From: a virus
IMG/VR virus record: IMGVR_UViG_3300017987_000311
Span: 1-26,818 of that record
Reading direction: 5' to 3' (one strand)
DNA length: 26,818 nt
The notes under the pieces were generated by a model. The model was not told the DNA's origin, did not search any database, and saw nothing but the letters and a program-made list of their open reading frames with translations. Each line of letters starts with the position of its first letter. Position 1 is the first letter of the stretch. The translations under genes and the position numbers were made by a program. This document shows positions 2,178 to 26,818 of the stretch, piece by piece.

Positions 2178-3263
2178 TTAGCCGACTGCGTTTGCGAACA
2201 TCATGTAAGCTACCTGACCGCCCGGCAACAGACACCGAGCAGACCATGCGTAATTAGCTTCTGTGACGGACGCTTCGACGATGTTACCGCCAGCAATCGA
2301 GCCGCCAACAAGTTCTAGCAGATACGCTTTGTCGTCAACGTCTGCTACGCCCGCAGCATTGCCAGCGTTGGTACATCGGATAAACGATAGGTCGGTTACG
2401 GCTGCCGGGTCTGATGCTGCGCCATAGGAATATATCTCTGGCATAACAGCCGTATATGTACCACCGGCTGCCATAGCAACGTCCGGCAATCCGATTTGTG
2501 CCCGGCATCCAGCGGCAAGTCCTGTTACAGAACCGCCTGTCGTGCTTTCACCAAACCCGGCTGTTACATGCAGACCGAACACGTTAGCTGCCGCTACACC
2601 GACAACATCGGCATAGAGCCGCATACAGTCACCACCACCACCAGCACCCGTATAATAGACCCGGAGGTATTCGCCGCGATTGTCGCCGCTAGTTGCGCCC
2701 GAGTCATATCGGAACTGCCGAAAGCTCGTGTTCGCTGTGTCGTTCACATACGGTGCGCCAGCGACGCCACACAGCGGTTCACAAACGACCGACCAGTAAG
2801 GATCCCAATGGACTTTGACCGGGATGACCGATGCTGTACCGGCCCCAGCGATTGTGACCGTGTTCAGCGCGTAGCCAAACGGTCGGTTCGTGTTCGCGTT
2901 CCGAATCTTCGACAACACAGCGGTTGTCACATTGATAAAGATCTGGTCGCCGAACACGATGTCACTGTTACCAAGATCGTCGCTTGATACAACGTCCAGA
3001 TACCAGATACCCTCGGTGTCCACAGCGACATAATCGGTCGCGGCGGCGGCGCTTTCAAACGCTACGCCGACACCGGTATAGTTGGACTGACCGAGATCGT
3101 TGAAAATGACCGGGTCGCCCTTGTTCACAAGATTGTCGCCGACTGCCGGATGCGTCAGATCGGTTTCGAGTATGCTGATATGTCGGCCTTCATATGTGCT
3201 GGAACATTCTGAGCCAGCTACCATATCCGCCGCATATCCGCCTCCTGGTGCAAATGTTGGCAT
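2178..3263 (-). CDS. Decoration-like structural protein (DUF2190-like N-terminus)
   Basis: This 361-residue protein starts at ATG 3263 with AAGGAAG upstream. Residues about 30-110 (DLTHPAVGDNLVNKGDPVIFNDLG... GIWYLDVVSSDDLG... FGDQIFIN) match the small beta-rich DUF2190-type fold of phage capsid decoration proteins: 'hpv..gd.v.kGdpV.f', then a 'd.eGiw.ldV' strand and a 'vGd.ify' strand. The remaining 250 residues are Gly/Ala/Thr-rich and look like a beta-sandwich (YTGAGGGGDCMRLYADVVG), perhaps an exposed capsid spike domain. It lies directly after the protease-scaffold gene, which fits decoration genes. The DUF2190 link is from pattern memory. Confidence 0.65.
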   Translation of the reverse strand: MPTFAPGGGYAADMVAGSECSSTYEGRHISILETDLTHPAVGDNLVNKGDPVIFNDLGQSNYTGVGVAFESAAAATDYVAVDTEGIWYLDVVSSDDLGNSDIVFGDQIFINVTTAVLSKIRNANTNRPFGYALNTVTIAGAGTASVIPVKVHWDPYWSVVCEPLCGVAGAPYVNDTANTSFRQFRYDSGATSGDNRGEYLRVYYTGAGGGGDCMRLYADVVGVAAANVFGLHVTAGFGESTTGGSVTGLAAGCRAQIGLPDVAMAAGGTYTAVMPEIYSYGAASDPAAVTDLSFIRCTNAGNAAGVADVDDKAYLLELVGGSIAGGNIVEASVTEANYAWSARCLLPGGQVAYMMFANAVG

Positions 3264-3266
3264 TGT

Positions 3267-3701
3267 TTATCTTCCTTTCACATAGTCTGTGGCCATACGT
3301 TCGGCCACTTCTGGCGTTTCACCCTGCTCGATATAGTGTGCCTTCCGCGATTCGAGCAGCCGAGCAGCAGCGTCACCGTCTTCTGGCGGTTTTGGCGTTG
3401 TGTTGCCGAGACCTTTGATAACCCCGGCCTCTTTCAATGCCGCCACTTCCGTTATGGCCGCTGCAATCGCTTCAGCTACACCGTCTACCGACTCCGCTTC
3501 TTTGAACTGTTCGGTCAGTCTAGCCTTGGTCGCGTCGGGTAGCTCGGCTTCGTCGATCAACGCTGTGATAGCCGTTGCCGCTTCACGCTTCGCATCTTCC
3601 GCTTCCGCAGCCGCAACTTTCGTCTTCAGCCCGTCATTCTCGGCGGTCAGAGTCTCGTTGCTCTCTTTGAGCGCTTTCAGTTCCGTTTCAACTTCCGTCA
3701 T
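3267..3701 (-). CDS. Probable nested scaffold protein from internal start
   Basis: Inside the protease-scaffold gene an ATG at 3701 has GGAGG (3710-3714 on the plus strand) 8 bases upstream, a near-ideal site. Translation from here gives 144 residues, almost exactly the coiled-coil scaffold part (MTEVETELKALKESNETL...) with the C-terminal tail and no protease residues. This mirrors lambda Nu3, made from an internal start in gene C. It is inferred from the ribosome-site geometry only; the product has not been shown. Confidence 0.5.
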   Translation of the reverse strand: MTEVETELKALKESNETLTAENDGLKTKVAAAEAEDAKREAATAITALIDEAELPDATKARLTEQFKEAESVDGVAEAIAAAITEVAALKEAGVIKGLGNTTPKPPEDGDAAARLLESRKAHYIEQGETPEVAERMATDYVKGR

Positions 3702-11484: not shown

Positions 11485-11883
11485 ATGAACACCATGACAG
11501 ACCGAGCGTACCGTAACAGATATAACGAGCCGGCCACGTTTGCCGAGCAGGATTGGCAAGCGGAACAGGCTGATGAGCGTAAAAGAGTCCAGTGTAATAT
11601 GTGCAGCAGGACCGTCGAGCCGAGTAACGTGCGGATAACCTACTTTTGGGTTGACGACAAACGATACGAGGTCAACCAGTGTCCGCATTGTCAGCGCCGA
11701 TGGGACAACAGATGCAACGGAGACTACGAGAAATGCGCTGTGTGCGGCGACGAATGTTGGAGCCTTGGTGATGATAGCATCGAGATAACATCGTTCGTTC
11801 GGCCGCATAACACGCGCGAACAGATAGCTTCTGGCTGCATATGTGCAGAGTGTGCGATAGCATGGAGCATATGGAATGCTTAA
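11485..11883 (+). CDS. Cys-rich zinc-binding protein (132 residues)
   Basis: GGGAGGA precedes ATG 11485. The protein has four Cys pairs: C37/C40 (CNMC), C66/C69 (CPHC), C84/C87 (CAVC) and C120/C123 (CAEC), with extra Cys at 91 and 118. This suggests two zinc sites, probably two ribbons in tandem. The first 30 residues are charged and helical. I do not recognise the family. Its stop overlaps the start of the DNA methyltransferase gene by 8 bases, so it may be co-translated with it and could relate to DNA modification. Confidence 0.75.
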   Translation: MNTMTDRAYRNRYNEPATFAEQDWQAEQADERKRVQCNMCSRTVEPSNVRITYFWVDDKRYEVNQCPHCQRRWDNRCNGDYEKCAVCGDECWSLGDDSIEITSFVRPHNTREQIASGCICAECAIAWSIWNA

Positions 11884-12541
11884 ACCGTACTACCAGCGAG
11901 ACGGAATCACGATATACCACGCGGACTGTCGGGACGTGTTGCCGCAGCTAGACAAGGTGGATTTGGTGTTGACCGATCCGCCGTATGGGATGAGGCTCAC
12001 GGCAGATTGGTCGATGTGCGGGGGGCGGCGATATGACAAGGTGGTAAACGATGACAGGGATTTTGACCCTCGCCCAATCATGGCCGCCATGCAGGGCGTT
12101 CAAGAGCAACTATGGTTCGGCGCACATTATTATGCAGAGAGAATACCCAATAAGAACGGGGGATCGTGGTATGTGTGGGATAAGCGGCTGACCGATTCCA
12201 GTGACAAGATGTTCGGCAGTTGCTTCGAGTTGATATGGAGCAAGACGAGACACAAACAGCGGATCTATCGGGTGAAATGGGCTGGCCTATTCGGCACAGA
12301 ACAGCAGGACATTAAGTACCGAGTCCACCCAACTCAAAAGCCGATCAACCTCATGTGCCCTTTGATGGTTGACCACTCGAACGACGGGGATGTGGTATTT
12401 GACCCGTTCATGGGTTCCGGTACAACTCTAGTCGCGGCGAAACACTTGGGCCGTCGCGCTATCGGAATCGAGATCGAAGAGAAGTATTGTGAGATCGCTG
12501 TACGCAGGTTGGCGCAAGACGTGTTACCGCTGGGAGTGTGA
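11876..12541 (+). CDS. DNA methyltransferase, beta class (N4-C or N6-A)
   Basis: This 221-residue enzyme carries the catalytic motif IV DPPY at residues 34-37 (LVLTDPPYGM). The AdoMet-binding motif I region lies near the C-terminus (DPFMGSGTTLVAAKHLGRRAIGIE, about 176-199). The order IV before I defines the beta class of amino-methyltransferases. It methylates the exocyclic amine of adenine or cytosine; the target is not readable from sequence. It is shorter than typical type II enzymes but holds the main motifs. No partner restriction nuclease lies beside it, so a role in protecting phage DNA is likely. Confidence 0.9.
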   Translation: MLKPYYQRDGITIYHADCRDVLPQLDKVDLVLTDPPYGMRLTADWSMCGGRRYDKVVNDDRDFDPRPIMAAMQGVQEQLWFGAHYYAERIPNKNGGSWYVWDKRLTDSSDKMFGSCFELIWSKTRHKQRIYRVKWAGLFGTEQQDIKYRVHPTQKPINLMCPLMVDHSNDGDVVFDPFMGSGTTLVAAKHLGRRAIGIEIEEKYCEIAVRRLAQDVLPLGV

Positions 12542-16928: not shown

Positions 16929-17561
16929 ATGAACGGATGGATGAAGGCAGCGGCATTTCTAAAGCGGCACGTGATGGAAAGCATAGTCGGTGTGGTTGTG
17001 CTTGCACTTGCCGTCTACGTAACGGTAGCAATGGCGGCAGGTACACGACCGCCGAGCGACGAAAATCTGGTGTGGGCGGCGGCGGCTCACGAAATCGAGA
17101 TTGGTATGTCGGCTATCTCGCCGGAGCAGAGGTCAATCGCGTTTGTGCATATTGAACGGCGGCAGGCCGGGTCAAGCAGCGAGACGGATTGGACTGTAGT
17201 CGGCATGATTACGAGTGCTGAACCGGGTGCGCTGGACGGTGGTATAGAAGCCACGATCCCCATTGACTCTGTACCTGAGCCGGGCTTCTATGAATACCGG
17301 GGTTATGTGGTTGACGTGGACGGTCAGTCGAGCGCGACTCCGCTGGTTATGATCGAGGTGGTTGGCGTTGCGGCACCTCCACCGAACCTTGATTATATCC
17401 GGCTGAAAGCGTCACAAGCCCGGGCGGACTTCACCGGCGACAGCGCGGTTAACACCGGCGACCTGCAAGAGTTTCTGGCGTTGATGGACAGAGAACCTGT
17501 ACGACATCCAAACGCGGTAGACATCCAGACGGTGATCAACGCTGCGATGGGGATAGCATGA
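16929..17561 (+). CDS. Membrane-anchored protein with Fn3-like domain and dockerin-like tail
   Basis: AAAGGAG lies 7 bases before ATG 16929. A basic start (KAAAFLKRHVM) and hydrophobic residues about 18-37 (SIVGVVVLALAVYVTVAM) form a signal anchor, so the rest should lie outside the cytosol. Residues about 60-150 have a beta-sandwich/Fn3-like look (FVHIERRQAG...FYEYRGYVVDVDGQSS). The C-terminus has two dockerin-like calcium loops, 'ADFTGDSAVNTGDLQEFLALM' in spaced D-x-T-x-D...D form, and 'PNAVDIQTVINAAMG'. Loops of this type are abundant in Planctomycetota surface proteins. The stop overlaps the methyltransferase start. The role in the phage is unknown: surface exclusion, or a gene taken from a host. 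Confidence 0.75.
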   Translation: MNGWMKAAAFLKRHVMESIVGVVVLALAVYVTVAMAAGTRPPSDENLVWAAAAHEIEIGMSAISPEQRSIAFVHIERRQAGSSSETDWTVVGMITSAEPGALDGGIEATIPIDSVPEPGFYEYRGYVVDVDGQSSATPLVMIEVVGVAAPPPNLDYIRLKASQARADFTGDSAVNTGDLQEFLALMDREPVRHPNAVDIQTVINAAMGIA

Positions 17562-18427
17562 ATGGCCTGGCTGTTTGTGCCGGGATCGGTGGACTTGAAC
17601 TCGGTCTCAGAATCGCGCTTGGCGACGGATACCGAACCGTGTGTTATGTCGAAGGGGAAGCCTATGCCGCGGCGATCCTTAGAACGCGCATGGAAGACGA
17701 AACCTTGGATGAAGCGCCTATCTGGTCTGACGTTAGAACCTTCAACGGCAGCTCGTGGCGTGACAAAGTGGATTTCATCTCTGCCGGATACCCGTGCCAA
17801 CCGTTCAGTTTCGCCGGCCGACGGCGTGGAACCGAAGATCCTCGACATCTGTGGCCTCATGTACGACGAATCGTTGAAGAGGTTGAACCCCGATGGCTCT
17901 TTTGCGAAAACGTGCCAGGCCACGCTCGACTTGGGTTCAGGGACATCGTCCACCCCGAACTGTGCAGCCTCGGATACCGGGTGGAATGGGACACATTTAG
18001 CGCGGCTGAAATTGGCGCGACACATCGGCGTGAACGGTTGTTCTTTCTGGCTTACTCCCGTGACATTCGATGCTGTAGCAGACCGAATGAAACAGAGTAC
18101 AGAAACGATCTTGCGGAGGATGAAAGTAGGGGGTGCTTGCAGTTTGGCGCAGATGGTGGTCAATCCAAACCACCCGAAGTTTTGGGCAACCCCAACCAGC
18201 CGAGATCACAAGGACGGAGCGTGTGCGGATGCGAACGTACCGACGAACGCCCTGCTTGGCCGCCAAGTCCTTCGGACGCCAACGCATGGCGATACGTGCT
18301 CGACCGATGGCCAGAACTCGCACCAGCTGTGGACAACAGCATCAACTTACGATGCACAAGGAAATACCAACACAAGAAATGCGGGGGGGGTGGAAGAATG
18401 CTCCACCCTTGTGCGCACAAGCTGTGA
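17558..18427 (+). CDS. C5-cytosine DNA methyltransferase, frameshifted before its last motifs
   Basis: The start at 17558 overlaps the previous stop (ATGA). Motif I is VCAGIGGLELGL (residues 6-17), motif IV GYPCQPFS with catalytic Cys (about 78), motif VI ENVPGH, and motif VIII GATHRRERLFFLA. These are the core of a Dcm-type enzyme that adds a methyl to C5 of cytosine. The frame runs to 18427 but lacks motif X, which is found 1 frame over (RLRALGNAVVP, ending at 18611). A run of eight G (18383-18390) lies at the switch; with seven G the enzyme would be a continuous protein of about 350 residues. As written, the product is probably inactive, unless the tract is phase-variable, is corrected by slippage, or is a sequencing error. 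Confidence 0.85.
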   Translation: MNGLAVCAGIGGLELGLRIALGDGYRTVCYVEGEAYAAAILRTRMEDETLDEAPIWSDVRTFNGSSWRDKVDFISAGYPCQPFSFAGRRRGTEDPRHLWPHVRRIVEEVEPRWLFCENVPGHARLGFRDIVHPELCSLGYRVEWDTFSAAEIGATHRRERLFFLAYSRDIRCCSRPNETEYRNDLAEDESRGCLQFGADGGQSKPPEVLGNPNQPRSQGRSVCGCERTDERPAWPPSPSDANAWRYVLDRWPELAPAVDNSINLRCTRKYQHKKCGGGGRMLHPCAHKL

Positions 18428-18588
18428 GAACAAACAAGAGCCGCAAACTCAACCCGCTATTCGTCGAATGGCTGATGGGAACGCCTCACGGGTGGACAGA
18501 CTTCGCGCCCTTGGAAACGCCGTTGTCCCTGTGGTTGCAGCGGTGGCGTTCGTACATCTGTGGGATCGCATTAAGGATAAGACGCTGA
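17562..18588 (+). CDS. ORF overlapping the methyltransferase in the +1 frame (same frameshift)
   Basis: The +1 frame relative to the methyltransferase is open for its whole length: 17562 to the G8 tract in one frame, then on to 18588 in the next once one G is removed (uncorrected, the first frame runs on to 18611). Its text is not random. It has Ser/Thr/Trp-rich blocks (ISSLPDTRANRSVSPADG, SFAKTCQATLD, FWATPTSRDHKDG, TNALLGRQV) and ends in LNPLFVEWLMGTPHGWTDF. From memory these blocks recur in phage proteins annotated beside or over Dcm genes, some of which do not overlap such a gene. The single-base shift repairs both frames together. Whether it is translated is not known; no separate ribosome site stands out at 17562. 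Confidence 0.45.
18383..18390 (+). repeat. G8 homopolymer at the methyltransferase frameshift
   Basis: Eight consecutive G after TGC. Reading seven G instead joins motifs I-VIII to motif X and at the same time joins the two halves of the overlapping ORF. Tracts of this length are typical sites of slipped-strand variation and also of sequencing or assembly error. Confidence 0.85.
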
Positions 18589-18611
18589 TCAACGCGGTGC
18601 TGAATGGATAG
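18391..18611 (+). pseudogene. Out-of-frame C-terminal part of the cytosine methyltransferase
   Basis: This stretch, in the frame of 17562, encodes '...IRRMADGNASRVDRLRALGNAVVPVVAAVAFVHLW', the motif IX/X end that folds back on the AdoMet domain in C5 methyltransferases. It has no start of its own and is separated from motifs I-VIII by the G8 tract. It is the missing tail of the enzyme rather than an independent gene. Confidence 0.8.
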
Positions 18612-18624
18612 GAGTGGGCGCAAA

Positions 18625-19383
18625 ATGAAGCCGATTAAAGCGTGGCATTTTATGAGAGCGGATCGGAAGTTGGGTTACGGTGACGAGCGTGTGGCGGTTA
18701 AGGGGCGCACATTGCGGGTGGATGGTAAGCCCGTAATGTGTAGTCACGGCCTGCATGGATCGCGCCGGATAGTTGACGCACTTAGTTATGCCTGCGGTCC
18801 TGTGGTCTGTCGGGTAGAAATCGGCGGGGATATTATTGAGCAGGACGACAAACTAGTTGGCAATATCAGAAAAACGCTGTGGTGGATTGACGGTACGATA
18901 TTGTTGCGCGAGTTCGCATGTCGTGTGGCCGAAGATGCGTTGCGCGTTGCAGATGTAAAAGATGAGCGGTGTTGGAACGCGATCAGGGTTGCGCGGCAAT
19001 GGATGAAAGGTGAGACAACAGACGAAGAATTGGCTGTGGCAAAGGATGCGGCTTGGGATGCGGCTGCGGATGCGGCTGGGGTTGTAGCTAGGGCTGCGGC
19101 TTGGGATGCAGCTAGGGTTGCGGCTAGGGATGCGGCTGCGGCTAGGGTTGTGGCTTGGGCTGTGGCTAGGGCTGCGGCTTGGGATGCAGCTAGGGTTGCG
19201 GCTAGGGATGCGGCTAGGGCTGCGGCTTGGGATGCGGCTAGTGCTGCGGCTTGGGATGCGGCTAGTGCTGCGGCTTGGGATGCGGCTAGGGTTGCGGCTA
19301 GTGCTGCGGCTAGGGCTGCGCAGAATCGCCGCCTAACCGCGATGGTTTGTGCGGCAAATCACAACGCGGTGCTGGGAGCGTAA
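18625..19383 (+). CDS. DUF7666-like protein with Ala-rich pentapeptide repeats
   Basis: The start at 18625 is supported by AGGAG 10 bases upstream; the earlier ATG at 18604 has none. Residues 1-100 (IKAWHFMRADRKLGYG..., 'MCSHGLHGSRRIVDALSYACG', 'VCRVEIGGDIIEQDDKLVG') match a phage/metagenome family I remember as DUF7666, of unknown function. Residues about 140-235 are five-residue repeats of type A-A-W-D-A / A-R-V-A-A, predicted to be one long helix or helical solenoid. It ends with the usual family tail (QNRRLTAMVCAA). It is likely a phage accessory protein; repeat number probably varies. Confidence 0.8.
   Translation: MKPIKAWHFMRADRKLGYGDERVAVKGRTLRVDGKPVMCSHGLHGSRRIVDALSYACGPVVCRVEIGGDIIEQDDKLVGNIRKTLWWIDGTILLREFACRVAEDALRVADVKDERCWNAIRVARQWMKGETTDEELAVAKDAAWDAAADAAGVVARAAAWDAARVAARDAAAARVVAWAVARAAAWDAARVAARDAARAAAWDAASAAAWDAASAAAWDAARVAASAAARAAQNRRLTAMVCAANHNAVLGA
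19045..19320 (+). repeat. 15-bp degenerate tandem repeat (Ala-rich)
   Basis: About 18 copies of a 15-base unit, mostly GCGGCTtGGGATGCG or GCGGCTAGGGTTGCG, code for pentapeptides such as A-A-W-D-A. All changes keep the frame. Neighbouring units are often identical, indicating recent expansion by slippage or recombination. Confidence 0.9.
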
Positions 19384-25377: not shown

Positions 25378-26818
25378 CTATTTCAATCGCTGTATGACTA
25401 CATATACCGTCGCAGCCCCCTGTGTAGCCGTTGTCTCTGTCACGAATGCGTCAACTGTATCCGCACCGGTATATATTTTCCGGTCGCCGTTGGCAATATA
25501 CGCGCCACGAGCACTTACATCTTGACCGTAGTATCCGGCAACGCCTTGATTGATTCCGGCATCGGTCAAGAACCCGTCTGCCGTACCACCGTCACCTACC
25601 GTCACAACCGCGTCACCGTCGAATGTTGTCGTAATCTCAATATAGACATCTTGCACCACATATCCATCTGCAACTGTCGCGCAAGCTTGTGTCGCTCCAC
25701 CATCCCATGTGATATCGTGCGAGATGATCGCTACGCCGTGCTCAATTGTATCTGAGATGCTTATGCTACCATCGGTGTTCAGCACAAGCTGTTCTTCATT
25801 GCCTTCGGTGAACAAATACAGAGGCCGAAGCACACCCGATCCACTTTCTTCTGTGTAAATATTATATCGAGATACCGCCGCATCCCAACCCATCCGCAAC
25901 CGTTCACGATTTGCGGTATCGCCCGGTGTGCCGACACCCCAAAATTGAAATAGGCAGTTATCTGTGCCGTCACCGTCCGCGGTCATAAACGATACGCCAG
26001 CTCCGGTCGCAGCTGTCAGCCCTTGAATCAACAGCCCGTCACCGATATTTGTGAATTTATAATCTTGGTTTGCGCCGAGAGCTATTGTAAGGTCGGTAGC
26101 AACAGTCATACTACCGGCTCCATCAAAGGTTAAAGCTACGCCGCCGCTATCAGAAATGTTGTTGCCTGTCACGGTCAGATTGCCGCCCATAATGAAGTCG
26201 CCATCGTTCTCAAATATGAATTCGTCAGCATCAGATGTCGGGCCAAGATGAAACGCTGCACCTTCCGGCGATAGCGTCCAATAGTCTTCTACACCATCCT
26301 CGTTGGCAGCGTTATACATACGCAAAATCGGGCTGTCGGCATCGTTGTCACCAAACAGATACAAATAGCCGCGAGCAGAATGGTCAGTGCCAATCCACAC
26401 TTTCGCTTCATCGGACGATAGCTTGACGTCGTTTGCAAACGAAGCGTCCAGCGTACCTGTATCCATCTCAATAACCGCACCGGTATCATTCGAGATTGTG
26501 TTGCCGGTAACAGTAAGGTCGCCAGCCAGCGCCGTGTTTAGAGTACCGGTCGTCATCTCGATAACCGCACCGGTATCGTTTGAGATTGTGTTACCCGTCA
26601 CAGTCAGGTCACCACCAACACCAAGATCGCCGGTTAAAGCGACATCGTCTGTGCCAGTCGTCATCTCGATAACCGCACCGGTATCGTTCGAGATTGTGTT
26701 GCCGGTAACAGTAAGGTCGCCAGCCAGCGCCGTGTTTAGAGTACCGGTCGTCATCTCAATAACCGCACCGGTATCGTTCGAGATCGTGTTGCCGGTAACA
26801 GTAAGGTCGCCAGCCAGC
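25378..26818 (-). CDS. Tail fibre protein, N-terminus beyond right edge
   Basis: The frame is open through the right edge, so the gene starts outside the window; ATG 26754 is only an internal Met within a repeat. At least 480 residues are visible. The upstream part is 30-residue repeats (GDLTVTGNTISNDTGAVIE...) of the beta-helix style seen in fibres. A middle part with 'YLYLFGDNDADSPILRMYNAANEDG' and 'SPEGAAFHLGPTSDADEF' follows, then another 'GNLTVTGNNI' unit. The C-terminal domain (VQDVYIEITTTFDGDAVVTVG..., ending VYVVIQRLK) is a beta-rich tip that could bind the host surface. The role is host recognition by analogy. Confidence 0.85.
   Translation of the reverse strand, partial: LAGDLTVTGNTISNDTGAVIEMTTGTLNTALAGDLTVTGNTISNDTGAVIEMTTGTDDVALTGDLGVGGDLTVTGNTISNDTGAVIEMTTGTLNTALAGDLTVTGNTISNDTGAVIEMDTGTLDASFANDVKLSSDEAKVWIGTDHSARGYLYLFGDNDADSPILRMYNAANEDGVEDYWTLSPEGAAFHLGPTSDADEFIFENDGDFIMGGNLTVTGNNISDSGGVALTFDGAGSMTVATDLTIALGANQDYKFTNIGDGLLIQGLTAATGAGVSFMTADGDGTDNCLFQFWGVGTPGDTANRERLRMGWDAAVSRYNIYTEESGSGVLRPLYLFTEGNEEQLVLNTDGSISISDTIEHGVAIISHDITWDGGATQACATVADGYVVQDVYIEITTTFDGDAVVTVGDGGTADGFLTDAGINQGVAGYYGQDVSARGAYIANGDRKIYTGADTVDAFVTETTATQGAATVYVVIQRLK
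26464..26818 (-). repeat. 90-bp tandem repeats in tail fibre gene
   Basis: Units at 26464-26553 (90), 26554-26661 (108, with an 18-base insertion), 26662-26751 (90) and 26752-26818 (cut by the window edge). The 90-base copies are nearly identical. Each encodes a 30-residue fibre unit (36 in the long copy). Such repeats allow fibre length to change by recombination and also hinder assembly. Confidence 0.9.

Follow-up and report, generated by a model that had tools for sequence, protein, structure and literature searches.

A cytosine-C5 DNA methyltransferase gene on a linear 26.8-kb IMG/VR virus contig, analysed here in full as a window of 26,818 nt, is very probably the broken copy of a nested two-polypeptide enzyme in which a one-base slip in a G run has thrown both coding frames out of register. 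In the intact form, a single mRNA would be decoded in two frames. The first, alpha, would encode the catalytic domain (motifs I-VIII), a linker, and motif X, and the second, beta, would be read in the +1 frame from a start inside alpha near motif IV, would supply the recognition region and motif IX, and would overlap motif X at its 3' end; the alpha and beta chains would associate into one enzyme. In the window, the sequence downstream of the G8 region is displaced by one base relative to the family, so that alpha would stop at 18427 without motif X, which would be left on the beta upstream part instead, and beta would be deprived of motif IX. Both breaks would be due to a single event, the two products being parts of one enzyme, and the displaced copy has presumably lost its activity. 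The slip could be genuine, an inactivating mutation carried by the phage population, or it could be a metagenome consensus error; a fixed mutation and such an error are about equally likely.

As deposited, the alpha ORF occupies 17558..18427 on the plus strand (mod3=2), and runs from motifs I-VIII (to approximately 18061) through the linker into a shifted tail and a stop, without motif X. Its assignment is supported by matches to Pfam PF00145 (E=6.7e-33) and phrog_363 (E=5e-53) and by alignment with relatives, and its PCQ and ENV motifs are those of the motif I-VIII part of a C5 methyltransferase. Motif X (RLRALGNAVVP, 18498-18530) is found in mod3=0, in an alpha downstream part (18391..18611, plus strand) with its stop at 18609-18611. 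The beta upstream part (17709..18382, plus strand, mod3=0) has candidate starts at ATG 17709 or GTG 17760, likely near motif IV, and contains the recognition-type block WATPTSRDHKDG (18183-18218). Its natural continuation sits one frame on, in a beta downstream part (18391..18588, plus strand, mod3=1) which carries the motif IX block LNPLFVEWLMGTPHGWTDF at 18448-18504 and a stop at 18586-18588. Comparison with the frames of relatives indicates that the displacement has fused the beta upstream part to the alpha motif X, giving a chimeric 349-aa ORF (17562..18611, plus strand) that matches phrog_1008 (E=5e-16). Motifs IX and X are each encoded in the window, one base out of register, with motif IX in a frame other than that of alpha and overlapping it.

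The G8 run (18383..18390, plus strand) is the only homopolymer of seven or more found in a scan of the 26,818 nt, and its presence is unsurprising, since a Markov model predicts 0.67 runs of at least eight in the window (and 3.1 of at least seven). Downstream of this run, motif X and the VEWLMGTPHGWT block are each shifted by one frame with respect to the sequence upstream, and the jumps of the alpha and beta blocks are +1 each. The slip is bounded by WPELAPAV (approximately 18336) on its 5' side and by the alpha stop (18425-18427) on its 3' side, and the G8 is the sole run of four or more between 18336 and 18425; it is the probable place of the displacement, and we infer that it is the exact slip position. 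The preliminary description had noted the G8 run and the joint one-base jump of both frames, which was confirmed by frame mapping, and its proposal that a single indel in or beside the run disrupts both frames was borne out as well. One of its three suggestions was a switch controlling two products; the two frames instead encode complementary parts of one C5 methyltransferase.

Other ORFs in the window were also characterized. A second DNA methyltransferase of the N6/N4 type (PF01555, E=9.7e-28) is encoded at 11876-12541 on the plus strand. The adjoining downstream ORF (18604-19383, plus strand) has a DUF7666 domain and an alanine-rich repeat (AAWDAARVAARDAA and similar units), and an ORF on the minus strand (25378-26817) with repeated GDLTVTGNTISNDTGAVIEMTTGT units, perhaps a tail or appendage protein, extends past the end of the contig. 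A scan of neighbouring genes turned up no recognisable restriction enzyme gene.

A search with the alpha frame identified 11 viral relatives, nearly all having a continuous alpha that includes motif X. In these, the +1 frame is open over nearly the whole gene, ending in the near-invariant block F[VT]EWLMGWPIGWT. Relatives found by searching with this block numbered at least 456 among viruses and 120 among bacterial genomes, and the best 80 of each were taken. Motifs I-VIII and X share one frame (+0) and motif IX is in +1 in 163 of 168 distinct genes, whereas the window as deposited has motif IX in +2 and motif X in +1. Among the remainder, motif IX is in the same frame, as in a single-chain enzyme, in two genes (that of Gordonia phage JKSyngboy and a Streptomyces locus), both blocks are displaced by +1 in the window and in one other locus (L167), and L106 is displaced in the opposite direction by a change immediately 5' of motif VIII. 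Given this common layout, the +1 offset of both IX and X in the window is more than chance would produce. EWLMG and the GN of motif X lie exactly 47 nt apart in 122 of 162 relatives, and the block coordinates give the same 47 nt for the window. One of the nearest intact relatives (L091) has 66% identity across motifs I-VIII, and in Paenibacillus phages each of the two nested CDSs carries the annotation DNA cytosine methyltransferase. Isolated phages that have the nested pair include Paenibacillus phage Bloom and Synechococcus phage S-H1. The nested arrangement is found in many phages and also in bacteria, mostly Alphaproteobacteria. Ten loci recovered as terminase-based relatives lacked this methyltransferase in the stretches examined, and a plasmid search gave weak matches only. 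Four loci matching an 18-mer were considered as siblings and were set aside, as they had no tblastn similarity to the methyltransferase pieces of the window.

Several relatives depart from the usual layout in other ways. Two contigs (L106:1312-2189 and L112) are identical over 2120 bases, and in both, through a one-base change, the entire recognition/IX part of beta shares the frame of alpha motifs I-VII, with motifs VIII and X in another. They were considered as a further case of slipping at a G run and rejected: the G7 that they carry is in frame, and the change of register occurs immediately 5' of motif VIII. L003 contains a Cys/His-rich, HNH-like insert (3239-3700) between the parts coding for motifs IX and X, with both frames open; this is possibly a homing element or intron, and had no Pfam matches in the frame that was tested. 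L007 (2501-3472) has one in-frame nonsense codon in alpha, 3' of motif VIII, and an open beta. In three viral contigs (L048, L050, and L051) and three bacterial MAG contigs (L117, L118, and L120), from several to 14 alpha-frame stops are present between motifs VIII and X, beta is fully open, and the alpha frame retains a conserved motif X. Motif X in these contigs may be a separate piece, may be reached via frameshifting, or may be dispensable.

A consensus error, whether a homopolymer miscall or a minority read path, would mean that the real phage carries an intact alpha-beta pair, and we give this slightly less than an even chance. In its favour, the displacement is located at the sole long homopolymer of the window, the core genes that were recognised (terminase, portal, and recombination) include no other that stood out as broken, and nearly all relatives are intact. 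Displacement was found in 2 of the 4 genes with a G run of at least eight in the VIII-IX zone, compared with 1 of 162 others (Fisher p=0.0013, with the window counted among the two), an excess that fits slips at G runs, either natural or in assembly. However, a G8 is not always misread, as it is present with the frames intact in L022 (the phage S-H1 record) and L161. Recent assemblies are also mostly short-read, in which eight Gs are rarely miscalled, and this would argue against a consensus error if the record is one of these. The nested architecture stands whether the displacement is real or such an error.

That the G run is a phase-variable switch, turning a two-subunit enzyme on and off, is unlikely. 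The tract is sufficiently long for slipping, a single step disrupts both subunits, and L167 (a Rhodobacteraceae MAG, 535-1885), with a G10 in its VIII-IX zone, independently shows motifs IX and X displaced by +1 as in the window. However, the tract of L167 is at a different position in the gene from the G8 of the window, and the tract at the window's place is not kept in relatives. G runs of at least seven are not enriched in the VIII-IX zone of relatives, where 8 were found versus 25.6 expected under a Markov null that ignores coding constraint. In-frame G8 genes indicate that such runs can occur without displacement, and a search with exact patterns around the tract, in a collection from which near-identical records may be missing, found no sibling record or second allele. 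Alpha and beta are continuous in dozens of related phages that lack a G run at the corresponding position, which is largely an outcome that the preliminary description, in proposing the switch, had named as counting against it. ModM of Moraxella catarrhalis, a phase-variable Type III adenine methyltransferase, is known to switch (PMC6902483); unlike ModM, neither alternative tract lengths nor a conserved tract was found here. The further proposal that a contingency tract toggling the two-subunit enzyme through both nested genes at once has arisen more than once, in the window and as the G10 of L167, is marginally less probable again.

Programmed slippage of RNA polymerase or the ribosome on the G run, by which the domains would be restored or regrouped, seems highly improbable. 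The codons of the run are GGG GGG GGT in the alpha frame, and the geometry of the frames permits such an event: a -1 ribosomal slip there would link motifs I-VIII to motif IX, leaving the recognition part and motif X to the 349-aa ORF. However, this arrangement is used by no relative, and the slip site is not conserved.

Selection on the two frames was assessed by comparing codon positions in 46 close pairs of related genes. In the part encoding motifs I-VIII, 0.52-0.57 of substitutions are at alpha third positions, and in the VIII-IX zone the alpha first (= beta third) positions account for 0.47 versus 0.28. This reversal indicates that in that zone the variable recognition region is maintained in the form of beta protein, while alpha is kept open. 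Between motifs VIII and IX, only 2 alpha-frame stops were observed compared with 329 expected from synonymous beta shuffles of 85 genes. Over the last 300 nt or so up to the end of motif VIII, 1 beta-frame stop was observed compared with approximately 116 expected, and more appear further upstream, a pattern that places the beta start near motif IV. An ATG is found within two or three codons after the last beta stop in L026, L071, L080, L087, L103, and L108, and in Paenibacillus phage Leyra the CDS annotated for beta begins at the corresponding position near motif IV. The PHROGs library holds both an alpha-like (phrog_363) and a beta-like (phrog_1008) family, each named DNA methyltransferase. 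The substitution pattern and stop avoidance show that both frames are under selection. It is therefore extremely unlikely that the +1 ORF merely shadows the methyltransferase frame without coding for a protein: its upstream half does track alpha conservation (substitutions in zone B are alpha-like) and beta has no Pfam or NCBIfam match, but this reading is contradicted by the VIII-IX codon-position reversal and stop avoidance, the near-invariant EWLMG block, the phrog_1008 match, and the presence of that block in frame within a single-chain enzyme.

The nested two-polypeptide reading also agrees with the anatomy predicted for the two chains. Sequence matches of the alpha profile fall on the catalytic part of M.HhaI and M.HaeIII, and the model predicted for L011, an intact compact alpha, agrees with that catalytic domain in fold. 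The linker from motif VIII to motif X in this model is mostly below a pLDDT of 50, and is apparently unstructured. In the single-chain enzyme of phage JKSyngboy, the beta block has its aligned counterpart at residues 275-299, between motifs VIII and X, and it was assigned to the place of motif IX because of this alignment. Beta modelled alone gave a low-confidence fold only, and a PDB sequence search with beta returned no matches. By analogy with M.EcoHK31I, alpha and beta would be separate chains that assemble, or frameshifting could join the parts in place of separate translation of beta.

The gene pair offers a strong natural example of interlocking enzyme halves encoded in two frames of the same DNA, and it recurs across many viral contigs as well as in bacteria. 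Nesting means that one indel eliminates both subunits. Since gene callers usually retain one frame, annotations of many phage methyltransferases probably lack the recognition subunit. In the open-licence literature we found the M.EcoHK31I precedent but no description of a widespread nested family, a weak sign of novelty.

In M.EcoHK31I the coding sequence of the small chain lies within that of the large chain, in an alternative frame, and M.EaeI is organized in the same way. The large chain of M.EcoHK31I (recognition sequence YGGCCR; Lee et al. 1995) carries motifs I-VIII and X, and the small chain has only motif IX (PMC3404938). Unlike M.EcoHK31I, the copy in the window is displaced by one base and is located on a phage contig. 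The predicted recognition domain of M.EcoHK31I has been assigned to the large chain (PMC3404938), whereas the substitution data place the variable region of the enzyme described here in beta. M.AquI (CYCGRG) is also a C5 methyltransferase made of two polypeptides, split in the variable region (PMC3404938), but its motifs IX and X are together in the small subunit, while here they are in different frames. M.HhaI, M.HaeIII, and JKSyngboy gp4 share the catalytic domain with alpha but have all of their motifs in one frame, and gp4 has the same block (EWMMG-P-GW) between motifs VIII and X. PHROGs 363 and 1008 fit the two frames, although the library draws no subunit link between them. Judged by the published motif layout, the relatives appear to belong to the M.EcoHK31I type of two-polypeptide enzyme, and the gene in the window to be a broken copy of that type rather than a working member.
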